From assembly GCA_029834535.1 (NCBI GenBank), contig JAQMWT010000349.1:62001-126000 (forward strand): a DNA stretch of 64,000 nucleotides, given 5' to 3'. Positions 1 to 53,309 of this stretch are shown here, one piece after another. The stretch comes from Chrysophaeum taylorii (taxonomy: Eukaryota > Sar > Pelagophyceae > Pelagomonadales > Pelagomonadaceae). A program made the translations under genes and the position numbers. The notes under the pieces are model-generated. The model saw nothing but the letters and a program-made list of their open reading frames with translations. It did no database searches and was not told where the DNA came from. The first letter of the stretch is position 1. Each line of letters begins with the position of its first letter.

Positions 1-1180
1 GCACATCATCCTTATCCTCAGCCTCCTCCTCTTCGACCAAGATGCCAGCAGTGGCTGCAATAACCCGGCAAACTTCGTCGAGCGAGTACTTTGCGAAACC
101 CGTCATCAAGAGCTCGTTGACACTGTCGACCAGCAACGAGGTGTTGGGAACACTCACGTTCACTTCGCGAGACGCACTCGCCATACTCTCAAGTGCATCA
201 GTAATGACCACGGTCACTTGCAGACTGGGTGGGGCATTGCCGATCGGCAAGCGTGCGTTGTCAAGTACAGTATCGGGCGACGAGGTGCGCAGGATGCCAC
301 GTTCGGTCTCGAAGCGGTATTGAAGCGGCAGCTCTGCAGACACCCAGCCCTCGGCCAAGAGCGTGAAGATCGTGTACAATGCAAAGCCTGCGGTGGGAGT
401 CACGTCCAGATCCCCCGAAGTCGGAGGTTCAATTGTCGTGATCGAGATACTTGCGAAACCGTATTTGCTTCCGACAGTCGCTTCGAGATTGAACGTGTAC
501 GTGCCACCGGGTACGAGTGCTAAAGGTGCGATAACCAGCGGGTGAGACCGAGATATATTAACATCCAATGATTTTGACACGGCTAATGGAGTTCGAGCAA
601 CATTTTCGAGGCTCTGGTCGGCGACGAGAGCGCCACGGGCAAGCGACCAGGTTGACACAACAACCTGCTCGGCGTCGGCCGCATCCTCGGGCAGCGCAAT
701 TGTGGCTTCGATTGTGAGCTTGTCTGCAGACCTTACGGTGGTCGTGTCGAAAAAAGTGATGTCGACGCGGGGGATAGCCATCGAAACTACCGTAAGGATC
801 TTTTGCGCCTCCGCCATGCGTCCATCTTGGGTGGACACCTCTACACTGAATGTGTACGTACCGGGTGCCAGTGTCCCAGCAGGCAGGAAGAGCACAGGGG
901 TCGTTGTCACTGGGACGTCGTCGCAAAGGCTCGTCTCCACCGCAGAGCATCGCCATTGGTACCCCAGCGTTGCCATCGGGTCGTCTTCGTCATATGATAC
1001 GGCAGCCGAGAGCACGATGTCCTCCAAGGACGATGCCGACTGGCTCGTGCCACCGTCGATCGCCGCGACGACGTGACCCGTGCCAACCTTTATCAACACG
1101 TCTTGTGTGTTGTTTAGACCCGAGAAAGTCTGGTCGACGACGGTAGCGCAGAGAACGTAGGACGTGTTCGACGCCAAGGC
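1..1180 (-). CDS. Gene A exon 4, partial (REJ-type region)
   Basis: From the acceptor (CTCAG before 1180) the frame starts GCC TTG GCG TCG (ALAS) and stays open to the window edge, about 393 residues. It has no internal Met requirement because it is an internal exon. It matches exon 4 of genes B and C almost residue for residue: ASNTSYVL near the start, the YQWRC...C cysteine pair, GTYTFSVEVSTQDGR, and the DVTPTAGFALYTIFTLLAEG block typical of REJ regions. The last readable residues are an acidic run near base 1. The GPS motif and membrane helices seen in B and C would lie further left. Confidence 0.85.
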
Positions 1181-4100
1181 CTGAGGTTGAACATAAGATG
1201 AGAATTTCAAGAGCATTAAGACAGGTCAATTCAGAAAAGCGAAAGATGAAATGCCGATAGAAAAAGGACTCTGCCTAATGCGAAGGCGTCGAGCTTGAAA
1301 ATACGATCGTTTTTGGAGGTAGATTCGAAATTTAGGCGCTCGAGAGACCCATCGTGTGGTCGTTCCTCAAAAAGCGTCCACAAAAACTCGACTTGACGCT
1401 CGAAATCGACTCTCCCGTCGCATTCTGTGGCGAATCCCAGAGCCTCAACTAATAGAGCCTCGCTTCGGCTCGCCAATAATACGTCGGCACCACCAACGAT
1501 CACAAGCGACGGGATGAAGTCGTAGGTAAGTCGAACAGTATAGCTGGCTGTCGTGGCGACCTAAACACATGGCCATTCACGAAACACAGGAATCTGAATA
1601 ACAGCGACATTGTGCGGGACGAACCTCAAGAAAATTTGTCACTCTCAACGTGAGCTGAAGTCGCGAGCTGACTGCGATAATTTCGTCGAGCTCGGCATTT
1701 GACAACGTAAAGAACGCGCTCCCTTGCGCGCGGTCAACCGCCGCGGCCAACGTTGCACTCTCGGCAGCAGCTACTGCATTCCAGAAAAACGTCATATCCC
1801 GACCAGCGCTGCCCGTTGATTGATCGGCCCGCAACGTGTAGTTCGTGCAGACGGAAACCGACTCGGGACCTTGGAATCCTACGCGCGGGACGATGGCATT
1901 GGCGGGTGCCAACGCCCGAACGGTCGTCCCATTCGCCGGTTCATAGCACTCACACCTGTCCACAAACAAAATCGTCAGCTCCGTGTCCACACCAAGACAA
2001 TTGAGGTCTCGCATCTGACACTGTCTCTCACCTCGCGCCGATTATACACTCCGCTTTCAAAACACCATCCAAAAGCGTGACGTTGCTCCCTGGAACGAAG
2101 CCCAGAGCATCGCTGATAACAGCATCCACAAACGTCGCGTTAACCCACACGCATGTTGCCTCCTCTACGTCTGTGAATAAAAATATATCTTTGCACGCGA
2201 ATTCCGCTCCGGCGACATGGCCCGCGCGATTCGTGACTGAATCGAAGCTGAGACCAAGTCGAGCGCCGCTTGAGCTGAATTGAGCCGAACGAAGCTTTGG
2301 CGGCTTGGGGATGTTGAGTTTCTTGCACGGTATTTGGGATGGTGGTGCTGACAGATCACTGGTGGTCGGCGCAACAGTAATCCGTGAGAAGTATTGATTC
2401 GACGTGACCGTTGGTTGCCATGTCGGACTTTGTCCATCTGTGACCTCGAACGCCCCGAATACCGTGTCCGCTGCGATAGTCGCCAAAGAAGCATCCCCGT
2501 CGACGGTTGCGTCGTTCAATGCAGACGTTACATTTGCTGCCTCGATGACGGCTCGCAACGATTCTTGGAGAGGACTTGTTGATGTGTCTGCCGAGGGTGT
2601 GACGGCTAATGTGAGTTCATTTTTTACGCGAGATGTAAACGCAGCGCTGTCAGTTGTTGAAACTGACTCAAATAAAACGACAAACGAGACGTCGATCGAA
2701 TGGCTGACTTCCTCCAGCTGCCGACGACTCAGGAGGCGACGGGTAGTGCGATCCTGCGCTTCGGCATTCGTAACGTCATCCGCGATGTCTAGCAAGCTAA
2801 ACATCGCCAAGGAGAACAGATTAGCTTCGGTTTCACCGAAATCATCTGCAATCATGCTCGCGAGGACCACTGTGGACTTAATGATCATAGTCGTTGAGTT
2901 AGTCGCCGATGGGGCTGCCGTGGGAGGCCCGGTGGGCGAGGTAGATGGTGTGACCGACTCTCTACCTTGCTGCAATGGAGTGCTAGTTGGTACCAGGTTT
3001 GGCAGCGCGCTCGGATGCGATATCGTCACTTCAGTCGGATTCGTCATGGGCACCGCAGTAGGATTGTTGTTCGTTGGCTCCGGAGACTCGGGGTTGATGG
3101 ACCCTGCTGAGTATGGGGGAATTGTCGGCATCCCAAATGGTTCGCTCGTCGGCGGTAAAGTCTCAAAAAACGATGGCTCAAGCGTTGGGTATGTGGGAAC
3201 GCTTGGCGAAATACCATTCGTCGGAACAATAGTACTTGCTGCAGCTGGGGCTGTTGCAGGCGGCAAAGTCACCGTGATCGTCGATTCTGGCGTTGGTACC
3301 AAGGATTGCGAAGACGTTGGTGTTCTAGTGGGTGATAATGTGGGTGGTAATGTGGGTGGTAATGTGGGTGGTAATGTGGGTTGTAATGTGGGTTGTAATG
3401 TGGGTTGTAATGTGGGTTGTAATGTGGGTTGTAATGTGGGTTGTAATGTGGGTTGCAATGTGGGTTGCACCATTGGATGGAAACTTGGTGGCACCAACGG
3501 ATGGGTGGTTGGCACCCACGAGAGTTGCAATGTTGGCCCAGATGACGATGACTCGTATAATGATGGCATAACAGTCGGACATGCTGGCGAACCTTGCCCA
3601 CTTGAGCTCCCTGGTGTACTCGCCGACGGGTGTATGGACGGCTGGATGGAATGTCTAATGATCGGCATGCTGCTGGGTAAGCTCGATGACGTTGAGCCAG
3701 GAGATGCAATCGGTCGAACCGAGGATGCCGACGAAGGCTCTGATACTGGTATCGATGTCGGAAATGGCGACGATGAAGAACTCGGAAAGGAAATGGGTAG
3801 ACCAGTGGGAGCGGGCGAAGGCCAAGATGTAGGTTGTTTCGTTGGCTCTGCGGATGGTGAGTCTGTCGGCTCAGAGGTTGGCGCACTCGTTGGAAACAAT
3901 GATGGTTGTGAACTAGGACTGTTTGATGGCGTCGCGGACGGACTGGCCGACGGACATCCAGACGGCTGGCTCGATGGTGCGCTACTTGGCGTGCTGCTTG
4001 GAGATGATAAGGGAATGGGTGATGGCATATACGTTGGGATTGAGTCCGGCACATATGAGGGAAATGGAGTTGGAAACGAAACGGGCTGTTGTGTTGGCGC

Positions 4101-7100: not shown

Positions 7101-10010
7101 CGCGGGCGTCGGAAATTTGGAGGGAAGCGACGACGGCAAGGGGCTGGAGGCTCTTGTTGGCAACGCAGATGTAGCTGCAGACGGTGTCCCAGTTGGCTGG
7201 CTCGAGGGCAATGGACTCGGAATGCTGCTAGGGATGCCCGAGGGACACCCCGTAGGCGCAGAGCTTGGCATGCTAAGAGGCAGCATTGATGGATTTGCTG
7301 TAGGGAACGAGATTGGTACTATGGTTGGGACCGATCTGGGATACGAGCTAGGTGACGTTGTGGGCGTAGACGATGGTGACGACGAGGGAGCGCTTGTCTG
7401 ATCAACCGAGGGAGGAGCGGTTGGGTCAGTAGCCGGAGCCACCGTGGGAAGCGACGACGGCCACGAGCTGGGCGTGCCCGACGGCGCCTGGGACGGACCT
7501 GTTGTAGGAATTCTGGTTTGTTGGCTGGATGGGCATGCACTAGGACTGCTCGAGGGACATGCGGTGGGCCACGAGCTCGGCACACTCGAAGGCAACGGCG
7601 ACGGGTGCGTCGTTGGGATTGATAAAGGAATTGATGTCGGCATCGCAGTTGGGCTTGAGATTGGCTGAATGGTTGGCATCGAGGACGGCCACGACGAGGG
7701 CAAAATCGTCGGATTCGACGAGGGGGCTGCGGTCGGTGCTGGCGTTGGAGCTTCAGCGGGAAGTGACGACGGCAAGAAGCTGGGGACGCTCGTTGGCGAC
7801 GCGGAGGGAACCGCAGACGGTGTCCCAGTCGGCTGGCTCGAGGGCAATGCACTCGGAACGCTGCTAGGGATGCCGGAGGGACACACCGTAGGCACAGAGC
7901 TTGGCGTGCTCGACGGCATCGCCGAGGGCAGTGCGATTGGTTTTGTCGAAGGCCAAGCGCTCGGAATGACCGTAGGGAGGCTCGAGGGACTGGCGGTAGG
8001 TGCTGAGCTCGGCAACCTTGAAGGCAGTGACGATGGAATCATCGTGGGCGCGTCGAACGGCGGTAGCGACGGTAGCATTGTGGGAAGGAAACTGGGCTGA
8101 TTCGAAGGTGTTGACGACGGCAACGGCACGGGAAGAATCGTCGGATCGGAAGACGGTGCGACAGTCGGCGCAGAACTCGGAGTATTTAATGTTGGAAAGG
8201 GCGACGGAACAACAGAGCTGGGTGCGTTTGATGGCGTCGTCGAAGGACGAGCCGATGGCGCCGCGGACGGCAAGGTCGAGGGTCCAGCGCTTGGCGCGCT
8301 CCTCGGCGACGACGTAGGGTTCGAGCTCGGCGCGGTCGACGGCGTAATCGAGGGCATGGTGGTCGAGGGCTTTGTCGAAGGCCAAAAACTCGGCTGGCTG
8401 CTCGGGCTTGTCGAAGGCCAAAAACTCGGCTGGCTGCTCGGGCTCGTCGAAGGCCAAAAACTCGGCTGGCTGCTCGGGCTTGTCGAAGGCCAAAAACTCG
8501 GCTGGCTGGTCGGGCTTTTCGAAGGCCAAAAACTCGGCTGGCTGGTCGGGCTCGTCGAAGGCCAAAAACTCGGCTGGCTGGTCGGGCTCGTCGAAGGCCA
8601 AAAACTCGGCTGGCTGCTCGGGCTCGTCGAGGGGCTCGTCGAGGGAATCGCCGTCGGCATCCCTGTCGGAAAGAATGTTGGCCGCGCGGTGGGAGTAGAC
8701 GACGGCGGCGCACTAGGCGAGTGCGACGGCGCTGCGGTCGGTCGCGCGGACGGCACTTCCGAGGGACGGGTCGTAACCAGTGCCGGCAAGGGTGAGAACG
8801 TAATCGATGACGGCGCATAAGTTGGCGAGTCGATCGAAAAGACGTAAGCGGAACCGACGTTGAGGCTCGATCCGACATTATCGCTGTAGGCTCCCGCGAC
8901 GATCGTATTTTGGTACGCGGCTACCGACGATCCGAAATAGTCGAAGCGAAAGCCATCGCTCGCGAGAAGCTTTGCCACCAGACGAGCATAATTATTATTA
9001 TCACCATCATCATCATCGTACTCGAAGACGTAAGCTGAGCCCGCTTCCGCGCCCTCGTCGTTGTCGCCACTCGCACCAACAACGATAATACCGTCATAAA
9101 TCGCTACCGAGACGCCAAACCAGTCGTTCGCGGAGCCGTCGCTCGCCACGAGTTTCCAGAGCTGAACGTACGTAGTGGAATTATAACGGAAAACGTAGAC
9201 CGCGCCCTGGTCGTTGCTGCTGGCATCTGTATAGCTCGCGCCGGCGACGATCGTGTCGTTGTAAAGAGCTACCGTTTCGCCGAGATAACCCTCCCTCTCG
9301 CCGTCGCTCGCGACGAGCTTACAGACCTGGACGCCGTTTTCGTATACGTAGACTGCGCCCGCGTTAAAGGTCACGTCGTCGTCCCGCGGGGCTCCCACAA
9401 CGATCACGTCGTTGAAAATCGCCACAGCATACCCAAAATAATCGTCGTACCCGCCGTCGCTCGCCGTTAGCTTCCAAATTTGCTCGAAAGTGGAAGCGTC
9501 GAAGACGTACGCCGCGCCAGCGTTTGTGTTCTCCTCGTCGTCGAGGATAGAACCGACGACGATCGTGTTCTCGAAGATCGCCACAGACCACCCGAAATAG
9601 TCGTACTCGCTACCATCGCTCGCTTTGAGCTTGGCGACCTGGGTCTCGCCGCTAAAAACGTAAGCCGCGCCAGCGTTCGTCCCGAGATCGCTGTCCTCGT
9701 TCGCGCCGACGACAATCGTATCGGCGTATATTGCGACCGAATTCCCGAATTCGTCGCTCTGACTGCCGTCGCTCGCAACGAGTTTCGCGACTTGCGCGTA
9801 CGTCGTAGCGTTGAACACGTATGCCGCGCCCTGATCACTGTCGTCGCCGAACGCACCCGCGACGATCCTATCGTCGAACATCGCCACAGATCCTCCCAAG
9901 TAATCGTAGGCGCTTCCATCGCTCGCGCTCAACTTGGCCACCTGCTCGACACTCGTGAGCCGCCGCGCCATCGCGCCGGTGGTGCACAGCACCACGAGGA
10001 GTGCTGCCAT
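1..10010 (-). CDS. Gene A: giant FG-GAP / PT-stalk / REJ receptor-like protein, 3' end off the window
   Basis: Leftmost of three tandem paralogues. Exons read on the minus strand: 10010-2032, 1955-1625, 1560-1270 and 1180 to beyond base 1. Introns are 76, 64 and 89 bp with GT-AG ends, and frames join cleanly (phases 2, 0, 0). The ATG at 10010 opens a signal peptide (MAALLVVLCTTGAMA). Seven FG-GAP repeats (about residues 20-390) follow, each with a KL.ASDG...FG.SVAI...IVVGA core; seven blades would make a complete integrin-type propeller. A Pro/Ser/Thr stalk runs to about residue 2365, then a conserved domain (STVVLASM...) and the start of a REJ-type region (FSSSGARLGLSFDS) that continues through exons 2-4. 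About 3,260 residues are visible. The membrane part must lie left of the window. Role inferred: cell-surface adhesion or sensing. The FG-GAP and REJ calls rest on visible motifs; ligand and function are unknown. Confidence 0.85.
3337..3468 (-). repeat. 12-bp coding minisatellite, 11 copies, gene A
   Basis: Eleven near-identical 12-bp units (AATGTGGGTTGT on the plus strand, with GGT and TGC variants) encoding PTLQ repeats followed by PTLP in the stalk's C-terminal part. The matching stretch in gene B (about 20030-20190) is diverged PT(L/M/V)xP sequence, so the homogeneous array arose or was refreshed in A. Confidence 0.9.
8374..8625 (-). repeat. 36-bp coding minisatellite, 7 copies, gene A
   Basis: Seven head-to-tail copies of a 36-bp unit encoding SPSSQPSFWPST (with SPTSQ and WPSK variants). 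Starts are exactly 36 bp apart from 8374 to 8590. The array lies at the N-terminal end of the stalk just after the propeller. Neither B nor C has a Trp-containing array at this position, so it is a recent expansion private to A. Confidence 0.9.
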
Positions 10011-10600: not shown

Positions 10601-10601
10601 G

Positions 10602-11378: not shown

Positions 11379-11440
11379 TCTCGTCGTGTTCTCGCGCCCC
11401 CCCACCCCCGGACGCGGCTGTCGCCAAGCCTTGACTTTGG

Positions 11441-11760: not shown

Positions 11761-11999
11761 ACGGTCATAACGAAGGCGGGTGCTACGGGAAATTGTCGCC
11801 GTGGGCGTGCAAGCTGACGAACCCCATCGGTGCCCTCTTGGCGCCTCTACTCCTCTCAGCACTCTAATTCGACTGTTGAAAACCCACAGACACAGGGGAC
11901 GTCTGCGTCCGACCCGCAGCTTTCGTCTGCTCGTGTTTGTTGTTCCCCACAGAGTCATTCCGACGCGGAGTAATTGACGCAGATATAATCATAGAATCA

Positions 12000-12234: not shown

Positions 12235-12339
12235 TAGTACGTCCTGCAGGATGAGTTTTGAGGAATTCAACAAGGCAGAGCGATGTGTTTGTCTGTTGTT
12301 GAATTGTATCAAACAATACACTAAAAATAAATACACTGC

Positions 12340-12665: not shown

Positions 12666-12676
12666 AGAAGAAGAAG

Positions 12677-12818: not shown

Positions 12819-15800
12819 TCAAGAAAAGGGCACTGAGTCGGGTTCGGAGCGAGATTTCGCTACCGAGCGAAATTGCGCTTTGGGGATACTACTGGAGGAG
12901 CGGAGGAAACTAGAGGAACGGAGGATACTGGAAGAACGGAGAAAACTACTCGAGGTGCGGAGTATACTGGAGGAGCGGATGAAACTAGAGGTGCGGAGAA
13001 TACTGGAGGAGCGGACGAGGACGTCGTGGGATTTGACAAAAAAGCGCACGAAAACAACGACGAGAGCGACGGCTACGACAGACGCGAGAAGGAAATAAAG
13101 CTCGCCGATACTCTCTTGGGAGGACGGGGTAATGTGGTCTAGTAGCATGGAGGTCGCAATCGCGCCAAGGGTGGCAACCAGGAGCACAATTTCTTCGAAT
13201 AAGGGCTTCTGGACGTAGTCGGGCAGCGTGACTAGCGCGGCGCAAAGACGAAGGCCCGCGCGCACGGCTGGCGATGGCGTCCACGTCAAGTCCTCGTGGA
13301 TTCCAGGAAGCTGGTCGAACAAGAAAACCTCGTCGAAGCGATTATTGATCCTGGACGAACGAAGCGACGCTTCGCGCAGCTTGCGCGCGACGTCACCGGT
13401 GACATACCTTCCTAGACGCGTCGACCCGTAGGCGGGCTCGAGCTGACAGTAGAAGAAGACTGGCGAGGCTGGGACGTTGGCGGCAAAGGGGAAAGTGCGA
13501 AGCGCCGTCGGGTCGTCGAGGCGTCGTAAGCGGTCGATGATGAGCGAGGGCAAGGCAACGTTGAAGATGACGATTTCGAGGGGAAAGAGAACGACGAACA
13601 TCAGGACGAGATTGACGACGACTCCCAGCAGCCAATGGCGAGCGCGGTCGTAGCCGATCGTCGTCGCGACTTGCAGCATGACGACGATGGTGGCGGCCAT
13701 GATGCCCGTAACCACGAGCCAAGCCGCTACGTAGGCAGCGGGAGACGGCGAAGATTTTGCTGTCTGCTTGCGCACGGTCATGCGGTATATTCGCTTCTCG
13801 ACCAACGAGAGGTGGGAGGCGCGCTCGGCTTCGACGAGGCGCTCGAGTCGCTGGACGAGCGTCGCGGCGGGCGTGCTGGCCGCAATCTTTTCCACTTCTT
13901 CTCGCAGACGCCAGGCCTCGGAGATGTGACCGCGAATCATCTCGAGCACGTTGTCCTCCCACTCGGCCTCGTCCGGCGTCCAGCGCCAGTCCTGCCGTAA
14001 GCGCCGCTCGATAGCAGCGAGCATCATAGTAGCTTCCGCGAGTCTGTTCGACTCCGCGTACTTGCGACACGTCTGGAGCTCAAAGAAGCCGAGTTTCATG
14101 TTTTGCACGACCTCGACGGCCAGCGCGTGCACGTCCATCGCCGCCATTCGGAAGCCCGAGGAGTTCGCGGCCCACTTTCGAATCGCCGACGAATCTTGGT
14201 TAAACGGCTTAATGATCCCAAGAGATAGCTTGGCGCGCGATAGCTTGCTGGTCAAACGACTGCCCGTCGTGCTGGTTTTTGTCTTGGAGATCGACGCGTT
14301 TTCGAATCGACAGCTTTGGACGCTGCGGCCGTGTTCGAGGCTCGAGTGACACCGAGAAACAAAATGAGGCCACGTCGAAGGGTTCGTTGTTGTCGGTGCC
14401 AAAGAGTGGCTCGATGATGCCAGAGACGGTACGCTGACCTCGTCCGTGCTCGTGGGTTGGAGGAATTCGTCGAAGCCGAGCGCTACGTCGTCAAATAGAT
14501 AAACATCGCGAGCAGTGCTGCCGGTATCCGCGTAAGAAAACAATTCCTCGACCTTGATTTCCTCGTCTTCTTTAACTTCGATGCCGTCATCGGAGCAGCA
14601 GCGGCCAAGGTGCTTCGACGACCTTTCTTCCTTACGGTCATCATCCACAACGAGGAGCATCGAGTCCGTTGCTTCTGTAGGGTGGGCACCTCGATTTTCA
14701 ACGGGGGTTTTTTCATTATCCCCGAAAAGTTGCTCGGTCGTCGTCGTCGTACGAAGAAGATGCGTGCCCGACCCGATAGAAACAGCAGCAGATTCCCGAG
14801 GAGCATCATCATCACAGCGTGGGTCCTGCGACGTCTCATCGTGTTCCTCAAACATGACTTCGATGATGGCGTCCTCCCGAGAGTCCCCCGCGATCCGAGG
14901 GGCGGCGTCCGACTCGGGCGCCAGGGGCGCACCGGACGGTGCTTTCGACTGCACTTCGCGTATAGAATCAGAAGAGCCACGACAAAACCAGTGGGCCGGC
15001 TTGAGCGCCGGAGGCACTGGCGCTACGATAAAATGACCGATGATCCAATCCAACGAGGCCAGCACTGGAATGACGATCGCCAGAATAAGAAGCAACAGTA
15101 CGAAATGCTCTACGGTTGCTCCAGCATCTCTCGTACTCCTCTTGACGCACGACGCAGAGCATACGTCATATTTACAGAGTGGCCTGCGAGACACGAGACT
15201 CCGAGCGTCGATCGCGCATTGGGTCTCGTCGTCGTACGCGCCGCAGTCCACGCTGGGGAACTCGATCCAGACGACCTCCAAAGCCAGCGCGAGAAAAATG
15301 AGGGCGCACTCGACACCGAGCTTGAGAGCACGCCACTTGCGCGGCATCGTCGCGCTGTACACGTTATACCAGTTGAGAATGGGATGGTGTTTGTTGAGAG
15401 AGTCAACCACGTCTCTTAACGATCGACCGGGAATGCTCTCGATTTGTCGGCGAGCGAGCGCGTGCGTCGTTGGCGTATCGAGGTCCACCAGACTTGCGCT
15501 CCTCGGCATCGTCAACGAAGCTGGAGGAGGAGACCCGTAACGCTTTCTTCTGCTTACGAGCCGCGCGTCGCGCTGGTCCATGCACTCGCCGACAACGGCC
15601 GCAATAGCGGTGATGACGACGAGACCAAGGCATGCTGTCAGCACGAGTCGCGATCGGCGGATTTCGGGTTTGGTTTCAAATACTTGCGTGTATACTTCGA
15701 CGGCATTCGTTACTTCGCGGCGCGTCGAGTAATCGGTTGCTTGGTCTCGGAGGTCGACGCGACACTCGCACCGCGTCGACCCATCCTCCTCGATCGTCTC

Positions 15801-31245: not shown

Positions 31246-31476
31246 AACTTCGAAACTTGCCCTCCTTGTGACCCTGGTGGGTAGCCGCGACACCACGCCG
31301 ATTTTTAGTTGGTGGCGATGCTACGTGAGAATATGCTTTCGGATTATTAACGGGGGGCATCTCTGGATCTCTCGAACGGATCTTGTGCATATCGGGCGAC
31401 TTGCCGGTCCGGCTTTAAATCTGCTGCTCGAGGAAGTGTCGCAGGGAATCTGAAGAATCAAGAAACAGCAGCACCG

Positions 31477-34013: not shown

Positions 34014-34253
34014 GTGTTGGCGAGCTCAAGGTTGAGGAGTGCCGCGCGTCTCGCCACCAACGAGTGGCAGCTACCGACGATCGCCGCGGCGTTGGTTGGT
34101 TCACGCGTCGAAGTGGCCCCAGCGTGCAAAAGGCGCAGTCTAAAAGCCCGCACGACCCGGCCCACGGACATTCCCAACGCGCCGAATGTTGTGTTTGGAG
34201 CCGATGGTATCGTGCAGAGTAGATCCGCGTAGGGGCCAATACACCTCACCCCG

Positions 34254-40400: not shown

Positions 40401-43400
40401 ATGAAGGTCAAAGCGCACAATCCGCGACAAGGCTGGCTTGATTTCTTCCAGATCGTGCGGGTTGACGAGGAACTCCGTTATCGAGATTGCGTACACAGAA
40501 CCGTCGTCGGGTGCAATCGACGACGATGCGTTCATGAACGCGAGCCCGATTTCTTGTACCCCGTCTTTGATCTCATTTGAGATTACCTTTGATGCCGTCT
40601 TGAGATTGGCAGCCTCCACCCCGGTCGCATCCTCGTTTGCCGCGAGCGTCTCGCGCTGGATCTGCGTCAGCGCGTCAACGGTCTGTAGGAGAACATCAGA
40701 AGCAACTCGAGGACTACCATCTTCGAGAAGACGGTGCCGTCGCGTAGCTTCAGGTGCGGTGAACAACGATCCCTTTGCCAATAAATTGCTAAGCGCTTCG
40801 GTAACAGCTTTGACGGCCACTGTGCTGCCAGATGCGCCAAGGCCCACACTTGCGAGCGTCGAGGTCAGCCCATCCAAGACCTCGAGAACTTCCTGCCCCG
40901 AAGCGTCGTTGAGGTTTGTCTCGGTCAAGGCCCGCGACGATTCGATGCTGAGCTCGAGCTCTTCTAGCTCCGGGTCGACTAGATTTTCCACGGCGTCGGT
41001 GAGAGCGCTGACGATTGTTTCGAGCACCTCCTCATCGTCGTCTAATATACCCGCCGTCGAGACAACAACCTGACAAATTTCGCTCAACGAATATTCTGCG
41101 AATCCCGTCGACAGGGCGTCATTCACTTCGTTGACAAGCGAGGAAGATGTGTTGGAAAGAGTCACGTTAACGTTTCGAGACTCGCTGGCTGAGCCTTCGA
41201 GCGCATCGGTAACAACCACTGTGACTTGCAGGCTAGGTGGTGCGATACCAATCGGGAAGCGTGCTTTTTCGAGAACATTATCGGGCGAAGACGCCCTCAT
41301 AATACCGCGCTCAGTCTCGAAACGATATTGAAGCGGCGGTTCAGCCGACACCCAGCCCTCGGCCAGGAGCTTGAAGGACGTGTACAGCGCAAAGCCGGCG
41401 GCGGGGGTCACGTCCAAGTCTCCAGATGTCGGGGGTTCGATAGCAGTAACCAAGATGCTAGCATAACCGCGATTGCTGCCGAGCGTCGCTTCGAGTTCAA
41501 ATGTGTATGTGCCACCAGGCACGAATGATAAAGGTGCGATGACCAGCGGGTGATACCGCGACGCGTTACCAGTGAGCATCTTCGACACGCTCAGTGGCGT
41601 CCGCGCGAAACTCGCAAGGCTCCTGTCGGCGACAAGGTCACCGCGTATGAGCGACCAGGTTGAAATAACGACCTGCTCAGTATCGGCTGCGTCATCTGTC
41701 AACGCGACAGTAGCTTCGATGCTCAACTTGACCGTGGAGCTCACTATGGCATCAAACGTGGCGATATCGACGCTGGGTATTGACATTGTAACCACAGCCA
41801 GGATCTTCTGTGCTTCCGCCGTTCGTCCGTCTTGACTGGAGACCTCGACACTGAACGTGTATGTACCGGGTAAAAGTGTTCCAGGAGCCAATGATAGCTC
41901 GGGCCTTCTCGTGACTGGGACATTGTCGCATAGACCCGCGCTCTCCGAAACACAACGCCACCTGAAAGCGAGGGTTGCTGTTGGGTCATCTTCGTCGTAT
42001 GATGCCGCAGCCGAAAGTTTGACGTTCTCCAATGTCGAGGCCGACTGACTTGTGCCACCTTCAATGACCGCGATGACTTGACCCACGCCGACGTGTATCG
42101 ACACATCCTGCGTGTTGTTTCGCCCTGCAAGGCTCCTGTCGACGACGGTAGTTCGTAGCACGTAAGACGCGTTCGATGCCAAGGCCTAAGTGCGTTTCAC
42201 ATGAATTTTGTGCGTAGAACACAACTTTCAATGAAATGCGCTTGACTCTGGGCTTTTTGCAAAGGCCGCCAGCTTGAAAAAACGCTTGTTCTTGGCGGTC
42301 GATTTATAATTCGTGCGCACCAGTAACCCATTGTCTGGTTGCTCCTCGAAGAGCGTCCACAAAAAGTCAACTTGTCGCTCTGAGGCTGCCCTCCCGTCAC
42401 AATCTGTAGAAGAACCCTTAGCTTCGATGGAGAGAGCCTCGCTTCGGCTCGTCAATTCGACTTTTAACCCGCCAACAATCACAAGCGACGGGATAAGGTC
42501 AAATGTCAGTCGAGTCGTGTAACTGCCAATAGAGGTAGCCTATGTGCGAATCACGTGATCAGTGCGTGCGCCACGTAAAACACTGAGGATTTGGTGACGA
42601 ACCTCAAGAAAATTTGTCAGGCTCAACGACAGCTCGAGCAAATTGCTGGCTGCGATTATTTTATCGAGCTCGAAGTTCGACAACTCGAAGAAAGCACTCC
42701 CTTGCGCACGATCGACGGCAGCTGCCAATATCGCGCTTTCACTTGCGGCTACCGCACTCCAGCGAAACTCCATCTGCCTACCAGCGCTGCCCGTAGATTG
42801 ATCAGCGCGCAATGTGTAATTCTCGCATACAGAGATTAACGTGGGTCCTTGGAATACCACGCGTGGGATGATGGCATTGGTGGGCGCCGTTGCGTGTATG
42901 GTCGTCGCATTCACCGGTTCGAAGCAGTCACACCTGCGCACCAATCAAATTTGCCACCCAGCATCAGGCTATAGCACGTTGGAACTCCACGAGGGATTTG
43001 AATCTGATAGTGAGACGCACCTTTCGTCGTAACCGCATTCTGCTGCCACCACGCCATCCAGGAGCGTGACATTGCTTCCTGGCACAAAGCCAAGAGCACT
43101 GCTGATGATGGCATCTACAAACGTTGCGTTCACCCACGCGCAAGTTGTCGCTTCAACACCCGCGAACACGAACAGCTCGTTACAGGCGAACTCCACACCA
43201 ACGACACGCCCAGCGCGATTTGTCGGCGAGTCGAAGGTGAAATCCAGTCGAGCGCCACTGGAGCTGAATTTCGCTGAGAGGAGCTGTGGCGGCTCGGGAA
43301 TGTCAAGTTTATCGCACGGGACTTGGGTTGGTGATCTTGACGGCTCGCTGCCTTTCGGAACTGACGACGGGTGGGATGTGATTGGGAGTAGCGTTGGCGG

Positions 43401-46400
43401 GCTGCTGGTCCATGTCTGGGGTAGACTCCGTATAACGGTTGGTTTTCGTGTCGGACTTTGCGTTGCCGAGTGATTAACGACCTTGGCTCTCGTTTCCTCT
43501 GCGATGATGGCCAATGAAGCGCTCTCGTCGACTGTTGCTTCGTCCAATGGCGATGTCGTGTTCGCCGCCGCGACGGCTGCTCGTAGTGAGTCTTGGAGAG
43601 GACTTGTTGACGTGTTGGCCGAGGTCATAACGGCAGTCGAGAGCTGTGCTTCGACGCGAGAAGTGAGCACGGGGTGTTTGGTTGCCGCGACGTAATGAAA
43701 CAAGACAACAAATGATACGTCGATCGAACTGTCGACCTCTTGCAGTTGTCGACCAGAATTCGCAAGGCGACGGGTTGTGCGATCCTGCGCTTTGATATCG
43801 GTCACCTCGTCTGCACCGTCTATCAGGCCGAGCAGAACCGACGAAAAGAGTTCGGCTTCTGCTTCGCCGAACTCGCTCGCTGTCATGCTAGCGAAGACCA
43901 CAGAAGATCCCACGCCAAGAGTCACATTGATTACCACTGATGGTTTTGGCGTCGGCGACTTGGAGGACGACGGCGTCGGTAAAACCAACTCTCTGGCTTG
44001 CAATGACGGATAGCCGGCTGGCACTATGCTGGGTAGCAAGCTTGGTTGCGTTGCCCGCAACTGACTCGGTTTCATTATGGTGCGCACTGTCGTGGGAATG
44101 TGCGTGGTCGTTGGTGTCGGACTAGACACAGACGTCAGATAGGTTGGTGTTGTCGTGTCCGGACAAACTGTTGGCACCCCAGAAGTTTCGCTTGATGGTG
44201 GTGTAGTAGGAACAAGTGAGGGGTTGACTGTCCAAGCAGTTGGCATTTTGGATGAGACGCTACCCACTTGAATCGTTGTGACTCTCGCTGTTGGCAGCAA
44301 CGTCGGCGTGCTCGTTGACCTAGACGTTGATGCCATGGTAGGCAGAGTAACAGATAGAGTCACAGGTTGAGATGTTGGCGGCAACGTTGGCGGCGATGTT
44401 GGCGGCGTAGGCATCGGTGGCAACGAAGGCGACAACAACGGATGGGGTGTTGGCACCCACGAGAGCTCAAGTCTTGGACCGAAAGTTGGTTTGGAGAATG
44501 ATGGAGCAACGCTGGGGTGTTCTGACGGCTGTCCACGATTTGACCTCGTGGGTATGAGCAGTACAGGGCACGGAGTGGGGAGCATGCTAGAAGGATGCGG
44601 GGTGCGTTCGGTTGGAATCTTTGAAGACAGAAAGGAGCTTGGCATGATTCCCATCCCACCGACTCGTGGTGCTGATGGCTGAGTCTGCGAGGAGACTACT
44701 GAACTAGGGGACGCTGCCAGATGATTTTCGCTGTGATTGAAACTCGGAGGTAGCGACGGCACAGAAAGTGAATCTGTTGGCATTGGTAAAGGTGACGAGC
44801 GCGTCGCCACGAAAGCAGGAGATTTAGTTGTTTTGGACACACTTGGGATGGGGCTCGAGTGAAGAGGTGTGGGGGCTGTCGTCGCATAGGCGTTGATTGG
44901 CTGCACTACTGGCATTTGGGTTGGCGATTCAATTGGGTCCGTGGTCGGCATGCTCAAGGTTTCTCCAGATGATGCCGCCAATGGTAGCGATGTTGGACAT
45001 TGACTTGGGCCAGGCGACAGTGACGGACCACTTGTGGGAGATGAGGTGGGTGGCTTTGATGGGACGCTCGACGGAACTGTCGACGGAATAAGGAGCATAC
45101 GTTCGCTCCTTGCAGATGGTTGTACTGATGGTGGTGTTGTCGGGCACGGACTTGGCGCAGGAGATAACGATGGAAATATTGTGGGAGAAGTAGCTGGCAG
45201 CTGCGAGGGAATGCTCGTCGATGTTGTCGGATGCAGAGTTGGTGAAAGCGATAGCGATGGAGGACTTGTTGGAGTGGTGGTTGGTGGTTGTGATGGGAGG
45301 CTCTCCAGAGTTGTCGATGGTTGGCGAATGAAAGCACCAGATGTTAATACTGTTGGATTCAGAATCGGTGAGTGCGACAGCGAAGGAAGAACTGTGGAAT
45401 AGGAGATGGGCCGTTGAGGTGGAATACTGGTGGGAGCTTTAGACGGACCATGCAATCCTCCACCAAAATCTGATGGTTGTGATGTTGGATCCGCCGATGG
45501 AGCAGCATCCGGCGGCAAGGTCGGAACCCGAGTGGGAAGCGACGATGTCCACGACCCACCACCGCCTCTCGACTTTGTCGCTGACGGAGTGGCAGTTGGG
45601 ACTCCAGGTAGTGGACTCGAGGGAATAACTGTGGGCGTTACGCTCGTTGCGCTCGAGCTCAGAGGTGTCGGATTCGTCGATGGTAACGCAACAGGAACAG
45701 ACATCGGCAACGCAGATGGATAAGAGCTGGGATGCAGTGTGGACTTTGACCACGGCGACAAGTTAGTTGGGTCAGCTGAGGGAGTCGACGATGAGGTCCG
45801 AACCTCAGTTTGAAGCGATGACGGTAAAGAGCTGGGTGCGCTCGATGGCGTCGCCATGAGAGCGGCTGAAGGGGTAGCGCTCGATGGGCTCGAGGCCAAA
45901 CTACTCGGCACGATGCTGTTAGGGAAGCTTGAAGGGCTCGCAATAGGCACTGAGCTCGCAGGGCTTAAAGGCAGGGGCGTCGGATTCGTCGTCGGTGATG
46001 AGATAGAAACTGTCGTCGGAATCAAAGTGGAATATGACATGGGGTGCTTCGTGGGCCTCGTCAACGACTGCGACGATGAGGGTGTGCTTATTGGATCCAT
46101 AGAGGGAGCGGCAGTCGGCGTAAACAATGGAGCCTTTGTGGGAAGAGATGACAGCAACGAGCTAGACATGTTTGTTCGTAACGTAGACGGAGTAGCAGAC
46201 GGTGTTCCAGACGCTTGACTTAAGGGGCATACGCTCGGAATAACGCCAGGGATTCTTGATGGACATGCTGTCGGAACACTTCTAGGGATGCTCGGGGAAC
46301 TGACTAATGGCGCTAAGCTCGGCGTGCTCGCAGGCTGAGGCGATGGTTTCGTTGTAGGGACAGAAATTGGAACCGATGTCGGGATCACGGTGGTATACGA

Positions 46401-49400
46401 GCTAGGCTGTCTTGTAGTCGTCAATGAGGGTATAGATGAGAGAGCGCTCCTCAGATCGGTGGGTGGAGTTGCGGTCGGCGTGGGCGTCGGAGCTTTGGTG
46501 AGGAGCGATGACGGCAATGTGCTGGAAATGCTCGTTGACAATGCTGATGGAAAGGCAGATGAGATTCCGGTGGGTTCGCTTGGGAACAATGCACTAGAAA
46601 TGCTACTAGGGATGCCAGAGGAACTCACAGTTGGCGCTGAGCTGGGCGTGCTCACCTTCTGATGCGATGAGTTTGTTGTAGGGAGAGAGATTGGAACTGA
46701 TGTCGGGATTGCCATGAGACACAAGCTAGGCTGCGTTGTGGGCGTCAACGAGGGCAAAGATGATGGCATGCTTATCGGATCAGTAGATGGAGTTGCGGTC
46801 GGCGTGGTTGTCGGGGTTTTGGCGGGGAGCAATGATGGCAAAGTGCTGGGAATGCTCGCTGACAAAACTGATGGATTTGCAGTCGAGATTTCGGTGGGCT
46901 GGTTTGAGGGCGATGCACTTGGAATGCTGCTAGGGATGCTCGAGGAACTTGCTGTTGGAGCTGAGCTGGGCAGGCTCGCAGGCTGAGGAGATTTGTTCGT
47001 TGTAGGGAGAGGGATTGGAGATGATGTCGGGACTGGATACGAGCTAGGCCATATTGTGGGCGTCGACGAGGGCAAAGATGATGGCGCGCTCATCGGATCA
47101 GTAGATGGAGTCGGCGTCGGAGCTTTGGCGGGGAGCGGTGATGGTAACGTGCTAATGCTCGTTGACAAAGCTGATGGATTTGCAGTCGAGATTTCGGTGG
47201 GCTGGTTTGAGGGCGATGCGCTTGGAATGCTGCTAGGGATTCTCGAGGAACTCGCTGTTGGTACTGAGCTCGGCATGCTCGCAGGCTGAGGAGACGGGTT
47301 CGTTGTAGGGAAAGGGATTGGAACTGATGTCGGGATCGTCGTTGGATACGAGCTAGGCCGCATTGTGGGCGTCAACGAGGGCGAACATGATGGCGCACTC
47401 ATTGGATCAGTAGATGGACATGCGGTTGGCGTGGGTGTCGGAGCCTTGACGGGGAGCGGAGATGGCAAAGTGCTGGGAATGCTTGTTAACAAAGTTGATG
47501 GATTTGCAGTCGAGATTCCGGCGGGCTGGTTTGAGGGGGATGCGCTTGGAATGCTGCTGGGTATGCTCGAGGAACTCCCTGTTGGCGCTGAGCTGGGCAG
47601 GCTCGCAGGCTGCGGAGACGGGTTCGTTGTAGGGAAAGGAACTGGAACTGATGTCGGGATCGCCGTTGGATACGACCTAGGCCGCGTTGTGGGCGTCAAC
47701 GAGGGCGAAGATGATGGCGCACTCGTCGGATCAGTAGATGGAGTCGGCGTCGGAGCTTTGACGGGGAGCGGTGACGGTAACGTGCTGGGAATGATCGTTG
47801 ACAAAGCTGATGGATTTGCAGTCGAGATTCCGGTAAGCTGGTTTGAGGGGGATGCGCTTGGAATGCTGCTTGGTATGCTCGAGGAACTCCCTGTTGGCGC
47901 TGAGCTGGGCAGGCTCAAAGGCTGAGGAGACGGGTTCGTTGTAGGAAAAGGAACTGGAACTGATGTCGGGATCGCCGTTGGATACGAGCTAGGCCGCGTT
48001 GTGGGCGTCAACGAGGGCGAAGATGATGGCACACTCGTCGGATCAGTAGATGGAGTCGGCGTCGGAGCTTTGACGGGGAGCGGTGACGGTAACGTGCTGG
48101 GAATGATCGTTGACAAAGCTGATGGATTTGCAGTCGAGATTCCGGTGGGCTGGTTTGAGGGGGATGCGCTTGGAATGCTGCTTGGTATGCTCGAGGAACT
48201 CCCTGTTGGCGCTGAGCTGGGCAGGCTCAAAGGCTGCGGAGACGGGTTCGTTGTAGGGAAAGGAACTGGAACTGATGTCGGGATCGCCGTTGGATACGAG
48301 CTAGGCCGCGTTGTGGGCGTCAACGAGGGCGAAGATGATGGCGCACTCGTCGGATCAGTAGATGGAGTCGGTGTCGGAGCTTTCGCGGGGAGCGGTGATG
48401 GTAACGTGCTGGGAATGATCGTTGACAAGGCTGATGGATTTGCAGTCGAGATTCCGGTGGGCTGTTTTGAGGGGGATGCGCTTGGAATGCTGCTGGGTAT
48501 GCTCGAGGAACTCCCTGTTGGTACTGAGCTGGGCAGGCTCGCAGGCTGCGGAGACGGGTTCGTTGTAGGGAAAGGAACTGGAACTGATGTCGGGATCGCC
48601 GTTGGATACGAGCTAGGCCGCGTTGTGGGCGTCAACGAGGGCGAAGCTGATGGCGCACTCGTCGGATCAGTAGATGGTGTCGCGGTCGGCGTGGATGTCG
48701 GAGCCTTGACGGGGAGCGATGATGGGAATGTGCTGGGAATGCTCGTTGATAAAGCTGATGAGATTCCGGTGGGCTGGCTTGAGGGCGATGCCCTTGGAAT
48801 GCTGCTAGGGATGCTCGAGGAACTTGCTGTTGGAGCTGAGCTGGGCAGGCTCGCAGGCTGAGGAGACGGGTTCGTTGTAGGGAAAGGAACTGGAACTGAT
48901 GTCGGGATCGCCGTTGGATACGAGCTAGGCCGCGTTGTGGGCGTCAACGAGGGCGAAGATGATGGCGCACTCGTCGGATCAGTAGATGGAGTCGCGGTCG
49001 GCGTGGATGTCGGAGCCTTGACGGGGAGCGGCGATGGCAAAGTGCTGGGAATGCTTGTTGACAAAGCTGATGGATTCGCAGTCGAGATTCCGGTGGGCTG
49101 GTTTGAGGGCGATGCGCTCAGAATACTGCTAGGTATGCTCGAGGAACTCGCTGTTGGCGCTGAGCTGGGCAGGCTCGCTGGCTGAGGAGACGGGTTCGTT
49201 GTAGGGACAGGAACTGGACCTGATGTCGGGATCGCCGTTGGATACGAGCTAGGCCGTGTTGTGGGAATCAACGAGGGCGAAGATGATGGCGCACTCGTCG
49301 GATCAGTAGATGGAGTCGGCGTCGGAGCCTTGACGGGGAGCGGCGATGGCAAAGTGCTGGGAATGCTCGTTGATAAAGCTGATGGATATGCAGTCGAGAT

Positions 49401-52400
49401 TCCGGTGGGCTGGTTTGAGGGCGATGCGCTTGGAATGCTGCTGGGTATGCTCGAGGAACTCCCTGTTGGCGCTGAGCTGGGCAGGCTCAAAGGCTGAGGA
49501 GACGGGTTCGTTGTAGGGAAAGGAACTGGAACTGATGTCGGGATCGCCGTTGGATACGAGCTAGGCCGCGCTGTGGGCGTCAACGAGGGCGAAGATGATG
49601 GCGCACTCGTCGGATCAGTAGATGGAGTCGGTGTCGGAGCTTTCGCGGGGAGCGGTGATGGTAACGTGCTGGGAATGATCGTTGACAAGGCTGATGGATT
49701 TGGAGTCGAGATTCCGGTGGGCTGTTTTGAGGGGGATGCGCTTGGAATGCTGCTGGGTATGCTCGAGGAACTCCCTGTTGGCGCTGAGCTGGGCAGGCTC
49801 GCAGGCTGCGGAGACGGGTTCGTTGTAGGGAAAGGAACTGGAACTGATGTCGGGATCGCCGTTGGATACGACCTAGGCCGCGTTGTGGGCGTCAACGAGG
49901 GCGAAGATGATGGCGCACTCGTCGGATCAGTAGATGGTGTCGCGGTCGGCGTGGATGTCGGAGCCTTGACGGGGAGCGATGATGGGAATGTGCTGGGAAT
50001 GCTCGTTGATAAAGCTGATGAGATTCCGGTGGGCTGGCTTGAGGGCGATGCCCTCGGAATGCTGCTAGGGATGCTCGAGGAACTTGCTGTTGGAGCTGAG
50101 CTGGGCAGGCTCGCAGGCTGAGGAGACGGGTTCGTTGTAGGGACAGGGATTGGAGATGATGTCGGGACTGGATATGAGCTAGGCCGCGTTGTGGGCGTCA
50201 ACGAGGGCAAAGGTGATGGTGCGCTCGTCGGATCAGTAGAAGGACTCGCGGTCGGCGTGGATGTCGGAGCTTTGGCGGGGAGCGGTGACGGTAACGTGCT
50301 GGGAATGCTCGTTGACAAGGCTGATGGATTCGCAGTCGAGATTCTTGTGGGCTGGTTCGAGGGCGATGCGCTTGGAATGCTGCTGGGTATGCTCGAGGAA
50401 CTCCCTGTTGGCGCTGAGCTGGGCAGGCTCGCAGGCTGAGGAGACGGGTTCGTTGTAGGGAAAGATATTGGAACTGATGTCCGGATTGCCATGGGACACA
50501 AGCTAGGCCGCGTTGTGGGCGTCAACGAGGGCGAAGATGATGGCGCACTCGTCGGATCAGTAGATGGAGTTGCGGTCGGCGTGGGTGTCGGAGCTTTGGC
50601 TGGGAGCAATGATGGCAAAGTGCTAGGGATTCTTGTTGACAGAGCTGATGGACTCACAGTCGAGATTCTTGCGGGCTGGGTTGAGGGCGATGCGCTCATA
50701 ATGCTGCTAGGGATGTTCGAGGAACTCGCTGATGGTACTGAACTGGGTATGCTCGCAGGCTGAGGAGAGAGGTTCGTTGTAGGGAAAGGGATTGGAACTG
50801 ATGTCGGGATCGTCGTTGGATACGAGCTAGGCCGCGTTGTGGTCGTCAACGAGGGGAAAGATGATGGCGCGCTCATCGGATCAGTAGATGGACTCGCGGT
50901 CGGCGGGGATGTCGGAGCCTTGGCGGGGAGAGATGACGGGAATGTGCTGGGAATGCTCGTTGACAAAGCTGATGGATTCGAAGTCGAGATTCCGGTGGGC
51001 TGGCTTGAGGGCGATGCCCTCGGAACGCTGCTAGGGATGCTCGAGGAACTCCCTGTTGGCGCTGAGCTGGGCAGGCTCGCAGGCTGAGGCGACGGGTTCG
51101 TTGTAGGGAAAGGAACTGGAACTGATGTCGGGATCGCCACGGGATACGAGCTAGGCCGCGTCGTGGGCGTCAACGAGGGAAAAGGTGATGGCGCGCTCGT
51201 CGGACCAGTAGAAGGACTCGCGGTCGGCGTGGACGTCGGAAATTTTGTGGGTAGTGATGATGGCAAGGTGCTGGAAACGCTCGTTGGCACTGGACTCGCC
51301 GCCGCGAACGCGATAGGATCTGACGTCGGTGCCAGCGCGGGACTCGCGCTCGGTTGTTCTGTCGGCGCCAATGATGGCAAAGAGCTAGATGCCGACGGAC
51401 AGATCGTTGGAGCCACGCTGATAGAGCCCAACAACGGCGACGTTGACGGTTGCAACGTGGGCGTGAAAGTTGGTGTGATTGCGGGGGGAGTAGTGGGCAA
51501 ACCCGACGGCGACAACGACGGTCGCAGCAAGGGCACGAAAGTAGGCGAGATGGTGGGACGGGTCGTCGGCAGCGAGGTTGGCGAATCAGATGCTAACGGT
51601 GTTGAAGGTAAGAACGTCGGCGCCACTGTGGGCAAGTCGAGAGCATAGTCGTAGATGGTGATTGCGTTGATGCAGCCCGTGAAGTTCGCGTCGACGATTT
51701 CGTTTGATCTCCGCCGTAAGCCAACGTTGACGGCGGTCGCGGTGATGTCAAAGGGTGCCGGCGTTGTTGCGATCGCCGTGCCATTGCAGAAAAGGACGAG
51801 GAGCGAGCCGTCGAAGACCGTCGCAATCGTCGTGCAGCCCACGATGTTGGCCGTCGTGATCTGCTCTCCGTCCCACGCTCCGATCTGCACGCTATCTTCG
51901 CCATTCCAGAGCCAACGGTGCGCGAAAGTGCCACTCTTGCCGACGTGCAACAACCATTGAGGCTCGCCGTTGTAAACCGCATCGTTCCAGCTCAGTTCCA
52001 TGACGATAGAATGTGCGCCGTTGCCCAAGGGCGTCGGAAGAACTGTACTCCACCCGCACGCGGTAGACTCTTCGTAAAGCAGAGGGTTCCCGGGTCGAGT
52101 AGGCGACGTCGAGGGGGCGGGCGTGGGATGCGCCGCCGTGGTTTGCGGCGCAAACGACGGCACGGACGTGGGATCGGGGAGGAGCCAAAACACGTAAGCC
52201 GCGCCCGGGCCGGTGCCAGAAATCGCTGTCGCACCGACGACAATAGCATCGTCGTAAATCGCCGCGACGCGGCCAAATAAGGGATCGTCAGCATCGCTCG
52301 GGACGAGCCTGGCGACCTGAGCGTAGGTCGCTGCATCAAAAACGTAGGCCGCGCCTCGGTATTCGTCGCCAGGAGCGCCGACGACGATCGTGCCGTCAAA

Positions 52401-53309
52401 GATCGCTACGGCACGGCCAAACCGGTCGAAATCCTCCGCGTCGCTCGCGACGAGCTTGGCGACCCGAAGATAGGACGTTGCGTCGAAGATGTATGCGGAG
52501 CCCGCATTGTCGTCGTCACTCGCGCTGACAACGATGGTGTTGTCGAAGATCGCGACCGAGCGACCGAAATCATTGTTCGCCAAGTCGTCGCTTGCCGTAA
52601 GTTTCGCTAGTTGCGCGCGAGTCGTCGCGCTGAAGACGTAGGCCGCGCCGGCTTCGTTCTGGGAGCCGATCGTCGCCCGCCTCGCGCCCGCAACGATGTT
52701 GGCCCTCGAGATCCCCACACTTTCGCCTAATCTGTGCCGGCTGCCACCGTCGGTCGCGACGAGCTTGGCAACCTGGTGGCAGTCTTGGAAGACGTAGACG
52801 GCACCGGCGTTGGTGCCCGCGTCGTCGTCTCGAGGCGCGCCGACGACGATGGTGCTCCCATAAATCGCCACACTCCACCCGAAATAGTCGCCGTTGCCAC
52901 CGTCGCTCGCGTTCAGCTTGCATACCTCGTCGTACGAGGAGCTGTTGAAGACGTAGACGGCACCGGCGTCCTCGCCCGCGTCGTCGTCGCCGTATGCCCC
53001 GGCGACGATCATCTCCTCAAAAATCGCCACCGACCACCCGAAATAGTCGTAGGCCTCGCCGTCGCTCGCGGTCAGCTTGGCGACCTGGCTCGTCGAATTG
53101 AACACATACACTGCGCCCGCGCCGATCCGCCCGATAGAGTCTGCTGCCAAGTATAATGTACAGTTGTGTGCGCCGGCCACAACTGTCCCACCAAACGTCG
53201 CAACCGACACCCCCAGCCTGTCTCGGTCACCGGCATCGAGTGCGGTGAACCTGCTCACCTGCGCCACACTCGACGCCCCGACGGTCGCGACCAGCGCCAC
53301 GATCATCAT
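37416..53309 (-). CDS. Gene C: giant FG-GAP / LamG / PT-stalk / REJ / GPS-like multi-spanning receptor-like protein
   Basis: Complete paralogue, about 5,226 residues, the longest of the three. Exons: 53309-43021, 42933-42603, 42539-about 42247, 42185-37416; introns 87, 63 and about 61 bp. ATG 53309 (MMIVALVATVGASSVAQ, signal peptide) is chosen over an upstream GTG. Order: seven FG-GAP repeats (about 15-385), a LamG-like domain (about 410-556) absent from A and B, PT/PS stalk (to about 3121), conserved domain (SSVVFASM), REJ-type region (from about 3346), and a GPS-like motif (coding about 40150-40050). Seven hydrophobic segments are coded near 39965-39905, 39610-39545, 39420-39330, 38195-38125, 38110-38015, 37660-37590 and 37570-37500. 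The third intron is odd: the GT aligned with A and B leaves the exon 2 nt too long, so a GC donor or other site must be used, or the frame is broken there. A LINE ends 80 bp upstream of the ATG. Confidence 0.85.
46341..51110 (-). repeat. 312-324-bp higher-order repeat in gene C stalk
   Basis: A landmark (GACGGGTTCGTTGTAGGG on the plus strand) recurs at 47293, 47617, 47929, 48241, 48553, 48865, 49189, 49501, 49813, 50125, 50443, with a variant at 50767, and 51091. Spacings are 324, 312, 312, 312, 312, 324, 312, 312, 312, 318, 324 and 324 bp. Weaker units extend left to about 46341. Each unit encodes 104-108 residues with PTTNPSPQPASLPSSAPT in the middle, and each matches one half of the 212-residue unit of genes A and B. 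Confidence 0.9.
51640..52080 (-). other. LamG / concanavalin-like domain unique to gene C
   Basis: About 147 residues interrupt the PT-type sequence. They start at a Cys-Gly-Trp (ACGWSTVLPTPLG), run through paired strands such as QWLLHVGKSG and VFDGSLLVLFCNGTAIA, and end VNVGLRRRSNEIVDANFTGC then INAITIYDYAL. The DGS.L..F.NG and FTG.I....IYD.AL patterns are hallmarks of LamG/pentraxin-like jelly rolls, which bind sugars or proteins. PT sequence lies on both sides, so the domain was inserted into, or kept within, the stalk start. Confidence 0.75.

Follow-up and report, generated by a model that had tools for sequence, protein, structure and literature searches.

A cluster of giant propeller–stalk–REJ genes in Chrysophaeum taylorii encodes candidate single-chain surface receptors

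Can an integrin-type propeller, a proline-rich stalk of thousands of residues and a REJ-bearing membrane end belong to one protein outside animals? This question is raised by a 64,000-nucleotide stretch of the genome of the colony-forming marine pelagophyte Chrysophaeum taylorii (the window; assembly GCA_029834535.1, contig JAQMWT010000349.1, here C349:62001-126000), in which three neighbouring minus-strand genes—A, B and C—are predicted to encode proteins of 4,619, 4,821 and 5,220 amino acids (aa). A fourth member, D (5,083 aa), is located immediately beyond the right window edge (65,365-80,876 in window-extended coordinates); the family is kept as a cluster, as a preliminary description of the window, made from the sequence alone, had suggested. 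Gene models combined with profile searches across the assembly (70.8 Mb, 697 contigs, cited below as C plus number) yield an architecture that is well supported as a prediction, and a single-chain adhesion or recognition receptor is its likeliest function.

Predicted architecture from head to membrane end

All four genes were modelled with four exons, separated by three introns at matching places. The giant exon 1 (8-10 kb) comprises a signal-peptide-like start (recognised by eye), the head, the stalk and the beginning of REJ; exon 4 contains the remainder of the REJ region, a GPS-like motif and the hydrophobic segments. In between, exon 2 is predicted to span 331 nt in A, C and D and 343 nt in B, and exon 3 273 nt in every copy. 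The last exon of gene A extends 4,093 bases beyond the left window edge, where its GPS-like motif and seven hydrophobic segments are encoded. Intron 1 and intron 2 follow the GT-AG rule; for intron 2, alternative splice choices also leave the frames open, and the choice taken is the one alignable between copies. Reading intron 3 as GC-AG keeps the frame in A-D as well as in a paralog on contig C331. It is from these models that we infer the splicing of the window genes.

Pfam profiles revealed seven FG-GAP_2 repeats in each head (E 8e-106, 4e-115 and 6e-86 for A, B and C). The preliminary description had named blades failing to close into one propeller as grounds for abandoning its proposal; in the predicted model of the gene B head, they form a single closed seven-bladed propeller, of the integrin-alpha type by structure match. 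An integrin-alpha-type fold of the head is therefore well supported as a prediction from modelling. The predicted propeller fold is common to the integrin alpha headpiece and the head described here, at an identity of 18-21%, and a PDB sequence search with the head returned no significant match (best E 0.03). While integrin alpha subunits continue into leg domains and a single transmembrane segment (TM), the heads of A-C lead into a Pro-rich stalk, then REJ and finally seven hydrophobic segments, with leg domains unmatched. Giant FG-GAP_2 proteins share 37-48% identity over the head among the 120 matches listed; REJ occurs in none of these 120, and the five with a named organism are all bacterial. 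Among viral matches to the head, 60 of 83 encode a relative.

Proline, serine and threonine make up 57-62% of the stalks of A-D, with a proline period of four in each of the three examined for it (A, B and C). Pfam PT was significant in the stalks of A and B and not reported for C. The proposed stalk length of 2,000-2,600 residues applies to A (2,164) and B (2,421), but C is longer, at 2,951 residues including a Laminin_G_3-like stretch, which scored 22.7 bits in the protein scan (below the cut-off of 27.6) and 30 bits, above it, in the genome search. A polyproline helix rises by ~0.31 nm per residue; if extended in a similar manner, we estimate that the stalks would reach ~0.7-0.9 micrometre. 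They are probably O-glycosylated. In gene D, beyond the window, a Cys-containing stretch with a DWGDGWNGA motif is situated between head and stalk.

The REJ portion of the last exon was detected in B (E 1e-35) and C (E 9e-37) by protein scan and in A (E 2.5e-42) by genome search. A GPS-like motif is present in A-D. The Cys/Trp pattern of this motif before TM1 is invariant in all 11 rows of an alignment (A1) of family members, but only one of these rows, a paralog on C40, is matched by Pfam GPS. The consensus for GPS cleavage is H-L-S/T; following the last C-x-C, these residues were found in 0 of the 11 rows, and A-D and the C331 paralog have R-V-E/D there. Seven hydrophobic segments follow the motif in A, B and C, and six above threshold in D; C and D each harbor three further above-threshold stretches outside the tail. 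After the last hydrophobic segment, RSSS-type Ser-rich motifs are repeated in A and B (gene B C-terminus, ~12822-13035) and hardly so in C and D. Thus, much of what had been read from the bare sequence holds: the seven blades and the REJ-type region in A, B and C, predicted introns at identical positions (now including D), and the GPS-like motif with seven hydrophobic segments, claimed for B and C and likewise found in A.

Do head and tail belong to one gene? The REJ region begins in frame within the stalk exon of A-D, and in a paralog on C65, a signal-peptide-like start, seven blades, stalk and REJ form one unspliced frame of 3,983 aa, its Pfam PT match falling slightly below the cut-off. FG-GAP and REJ matches with equal open-frame lengths, judged by frame length alone, were further found at C492, C315 and C524:451k. 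Genome-wide, 45 REJ matches were merged by hand into 42 loci, at least 12 of which carry FG-GAP upstream on the same strand (best 150 of 213 candidates scored in the FG-GAP search). Of the other 30 loci, two N-termini were read. One (C186:22501-24813, locus L124) seems to start its frame with Glyco_transf_8 (E 1e-17), the other, on C387, with a PT stalk lacking any head match. Positions and frame lengths of the two loci, compared at the ends, fit one frame up to the REJ-membrane part.

Mosaic divergence among paralogs

In pairwise comparisons of A-D, none of the four parts (head, stalk, REJ-GAIN, tail) reached a ratio of nonsynonymous to synonymous differences (pN/pS) of 1, and purifying selection prevails overall. 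The proposal that head and membrane parts are conserved while the stalk diverges does not hold: identities in head and stalk are similar (69 vs 69.5% in A/B; 54 vs 50% in A/C), REJ-GAIN is the most conserved part, and the paralogs are mosaic. Stalk identities are inflated by composition: aligned to the A stalk, the C stalk still reaches 33-35% when shuffled and 42-44% when shuffled in 12-residue blocks (three each), as compared to 51% for the real pair.

The clearest mosaic involves gene C and its C331 paralog, which match at 99.17% identity along a tract of 9,275 bp that starts in the stalk and ends 155 bp beyond the stop codon. The stalk edge of this tract coincides with the edge of the C331 stalk satellite, and a chi-square scan placed the break ~0.4 kb further into the satellite, at C residue 2,137. 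The two heads are 72% identical with a synonymous difference (pS) of 0.24, as opposed to 0.004 and 0.019 in two tail segments; this synonymous contrast is the strongest item for mosaic divergence. In the C/D pair, third-position identity jumps from 0.36 to 0.72; the change falls on C residue 2,606, within the stalk and ~0.8 kb past the satellite. For all seven pairs, 0 of 1,000 block permutations reached the observed break (chi-square 653 in C/C331, 601 in C/D, 38-124 in the other five), yet the breaks alone are no proof, as block permutation ignores rate differences between domains. The heads are the divergent part in two pairs, C/C331 and C/D, and not in all.

Within the C/C331 heads, changes are concentrated in loops that we take to lie on the integrin top face, where 64 of 135 codons differ versus 40 of 219 elsewhere (Fisher p 1e-8 relative to the rest and 0.002 relative to bottom loops); pN/pS amounts to 0.99 in these loops, 0.40 in strands and 0.58 in bottom loops. 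Top loops also exceed the rest in A/B (p 0.03) and C/D (p 1e-4). Compared with bottom loops, however, the pattern is reversed in A/B (p 0.003) and absent from C/D (p 0.83), and we therefore do not claim it to be general; at this stage, the concentration may serve as a lead, not as a result. Single loop classes (14-57 codons) reach pN/pS point estimates of 1.05-1.18.

Could the C331 copy be an allele of gene C? A simple allele was rejected because the flanks do not match: ~9 kb on each side of the C331 tract lack a collinear counterpart in 87 kb of C349, with two short matches of 134 and 77 bp. That said, many-copy repeats make up roughly half of the downstream flank and the larger part of the upstream one (best 33 of 4,325 and 39 of 3,407 candidates, respectively), and haplotig-like collinear or equal-scoring matches elsewhere in the assembly (C25/C521, C161/C184) suggest uncollapsed haplotypes. 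Given such pairs and the repeat-rich flanks, we keep a rearranged haplotype as a rival, with a separate locus being more likely. Assembly artefact or an unresolved, rearranged haplotype, instead of exchange between two loci, would also suit a joint that falls at a satellite; but the tract ends on both sides, past the stop codon as well as at the satellite, and C/D shows another break within one and the same contig. We consider this explanation of the C/C331 mosaic unlikely.

Candidate functions and competing explanations

Building on the computed domain order, the predicted propeller fold, the single head-to-REJ frame of a paralog, purifying selection and mosaic divergence, we moderately favour A-D being single-chain cell-surface receptors for adhesion or recognition, with sequence exchange between paralogs. 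The integrin-alpha-type propeller would bind a ligand—on a substrate, a neighbour or a mate—and the stalk of 2,000-3,000 residues, with proline at every fourth place and probably O-glycosylated, would keep the head at a great distance from the membrane. Anchoring the protein and passing a signal inward would fall to the REJ region, the juxtamembrane GPS-like motif and the seven-span part. Since the motif lacks the usual cleavage residues, an uncleaved chain is expected, which might signal through force or a ligand-induced change. Gene conversion or unequal exchange between paralogs, with two sharp joints in the stalk, would allow heads to diverge while other parts are homogenised. If true, an integrin-type binding head would be part of a single-chain seven-span receptor outside animals, the REJ family would be widened by a new kind of head, and stalk repeats would offer a concrete case of seemingly acting as joints between binding and signalling parts—testable in a culturable bloom-forming alga.

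Several observations weigh against this interpretation. No GT donor was found at intron 3 that keeps all copies open, and the GenBank model P0007 begins within REJ without joining head to tail, a start that may stem from the odd intron. The structure model of the membrane/GAIN part was too poor for a fold (mean predicted local distance difference test score, pLDDT, 34), so the putative GAIN fold and topology are read from motif and hydropathy. Positive selection in the heads was not established, with grouped loop classes at or below a pN/pS of 0.99. Lastly, the well-matched part of A/B is the stalk plus early REJ, with the break inside REJ, and not the tail, which is why 'heads vary, tails kept' is no rule.

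The nearest described layout is that of another stramenopile protein, Ectocarpus Esi0130_0068, which combines REJ and GPS with a predicted six or seven membrane spans, as compared by its description; it has 1,427 aa, belongs to male gametes and contains positively selected sites (PMC4700764, accessible portion). According to the same portion, GPS is matched significantly in Esi0130_0068 and a polycystin channel is matched inside its REJ domain; neither match was found in A-D, and the description names no propeller or stalk, both of which A-D carry. Sea-urchin SpREJ proteins and polycystin-1 are alike in having a large modular ectodomain, REJ, a juxtamembrane GPS and often a multi-pass end; they differ in their lectin domains, PKD repeats, usual PLAT after TM1 and up to 11 TM with a channel (PMC1934368, accessible portion). 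By comparison, A-D possess a propeller head and Pro-rich stalk, and neither a PLAT or channel match nor canonical GPS cleavage residues. SpREJ proteins range from 0 to 11 TM, and members without a channel still count as family in that portion of the text (PMC1934368). Homologue searches with the tail retrieved only C. taylorii proteins among the best 8,000 and 7,997 candidates, which is weak evidence for a restriction to this species because ~8,000 candidates were scored per search; no relatives of the tail were present among 33 viral pattern matches. The accessible main text of the C. taylorii genome paper contains no word starting with 'rej'. In the titles and abstract openings of the matches listed, the propeller-stalk-REJ combination did not appear, and FG-GAP together with a REJ domain led to bacterial ice-binding proteins, where, by those excerpts, the domains occur in separate architectures.

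By sequence, mating, adhesion and mechanosensing cannot be told apart. Two more specific settings, settlement and mating, are special cases of the receptor reading, and the chances we assign to them overlap with its own. It is quite possible, albeit tentative, that A-D sense substrate, mucilage or cell wall as adhesion or touch receptors during zoospore settling or colony formation. The head fold is that of adhesion receptors, C. taylorii colonies are embedded in mucilage according to the accessible text, and zoospores of Revolvomonas, another pelagophyte, settle by their flagellum and raft together, although this settlement evidence comes from a different genus. More doubtful is a modular system in which REJ-7TM (seven-TM) tails are combined with different heads, and exchange between stalk repeats would uncouple propeller from tail and build up a repertoire, perhaps one that recognises self, kin or mates.

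Gamete or mating receptors, whose propeller would read the partner surface and whose REJ-GPS-7TM part would trigger fusion, as proposed for SpREJ1 and Esi0130_0068, appear unlikely. They would agree with the resemblance to Esi0130_0068 and its positively selected sites, with five Ectocarpus REJ-like genes expressed only in male gametes (PMC3879662, accessible portion) and with the diverging heads of C/C331 and C/D. However, the FG-GAP-headed REJ loci are many for a mating pair, the words sexual, gamete and mating have 0 occurrences in the main text of a pelagophyte paper, and positive selection on the heads was not established.

The preliminary description had joined an integrin-type head and stalk to a polycystin-like end; the modelled propeller and the head-to-REJ frame (in a paralog) stand, whereas the polycystin end, in the strict sense, is not supported. 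Although REJ adjoins a GPS-like motif, and nine PKD_channel matches elsewhere in the genome (C392, C362, C552, C390, C317, C345, C578) might be PKD2-like partners, none of the nine is at a REJ gene, the nearest being ~75 kb away on the same contig. No PLAT or PKD_channel match was obtained in the scanned family members (the genome-wide PLAT search was silent, as were its 14 controls), the hydrophobic segments number seven instead of eleven, and a PDB sequence search with the tail, solved polycystins included, gave no significant match (best E 0.17-0.33). A canonical polycystin channel was rejected on the lack of a PKD_channel match at REJ genes and in the scanned members, and true polycystin-1-type regulators of a separate PKD2-like channel are improbable. 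Finally, a split into two genes, with head-stalk as a secreted wall protein and REJ-7TM as a neighbouring receptor, as the start of P0007 and the unusual intron 3 would permit, is ruled against by the single C65 frame and rendered very improbable by the in-frame REJ start and by predicted exon lengths and phases conserved in four copies.

Coordinates and neighbouring features

Table 1. Predicted gene parts and associated repeats of A, B and C, in window positions.
Feature	Position	Strand	Basis
Gene A head (exon 1): seven FG-GAP_2 blades after a signal-peptide-like start (by eye)	8820..10010	-	Pfam E 8e-106, 7 stretches
Gene A stalk (exon 1), Pro/Ser/Thr-rich, 2,164 residues	2328..8819	-	Pfam PT E 2.5e-37; P+S+T 0.60; period-4 proline
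Gene A exon 1, REJ region start	2032..2327	-	gene model
Gene A exon 2 (predicted)	1625..1955	-	gene model
Gene A exon 3 (predicted, 273 nt)	1288..1560	-	gene model
Gene A exon 4 (REJ 134-1180), continuing past window edge	1..1180	-	genome profile search, gene model
Gene B head (exon 1): seven FG-GAP_2 blades, one closed seven-bladed propeller in the model	26340..27545	-	
Gene B stalk, 2,421 residues	19077..26339	-	Pfam PT E 3e-84
Gene B exon 1, REJ region start	18781..19076	-	gene model
Gene B exon 2 (predicted, 343 nt)	18355..18697	-	gene model
Gene B exon 3 (predicted, 273 nt)	18028..18300	-	gene model
Gene B exon 4, with REJ (16851-17879 by Pfam), the GPS-like motif (15759-15872) and the seven hydrophobic segments (13035-15647)	12822..17903	-	
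Gene C exon 1, head: seven FG-GAP_2 blades	52170..53309	-	Pfam E 5.8e-86
Gene C weak Laminin_G_3-like stretch, between head and stalk	51624..51977	-	E 1.2e-4
Gene C stalk, 2,951 residues including Laminin_G_3-like stretch	43317..52169	-	P+S+T 0.585; period-4 proline
Satellite within gene C stalk, 312-bp unit, 15.8 copies	46282..51286	-	
Gene C exon 1, REJ region start	43021..43316	-	gene model
Gene C exon 2 (predicted, 331 nt)	42603..42933	-	gene model
Gene C exon 3 (predicted, 273 nt)	42267..42539	-	gene model
Gene C exon 4, with REJ (41115-42167 by Pfam), the GPS-like motif (40068-40178) and the seven hydrophobic segments (37506-39959)	37419..42185	-	
Tract 99.17% identical, 9,275 bp, to C331 paralog (C331:77022-86296)	37261..46535	-	

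Between B and C, the minus strand contains a frame for an ABC half-transporter (29446-31320; ABC2_membrane 5e-37, ABC_tran 4e-24), ABCG-like by domain order. The segment at ~31502-34114 belongs to a dispersed repeat family, of which dozens of copies exist at 72-84%. At ~53389-55289 lies a reverse-transcriptase element (RVT_1 3e-12), of which at least 39 other copies of at least 1.3 kb exist at 89-94% (best 40 of 1,875 candidates). Beyond the gene C 3′ end, a 75-bp unit occurs twice (36314-36462), the two being 98% identical.

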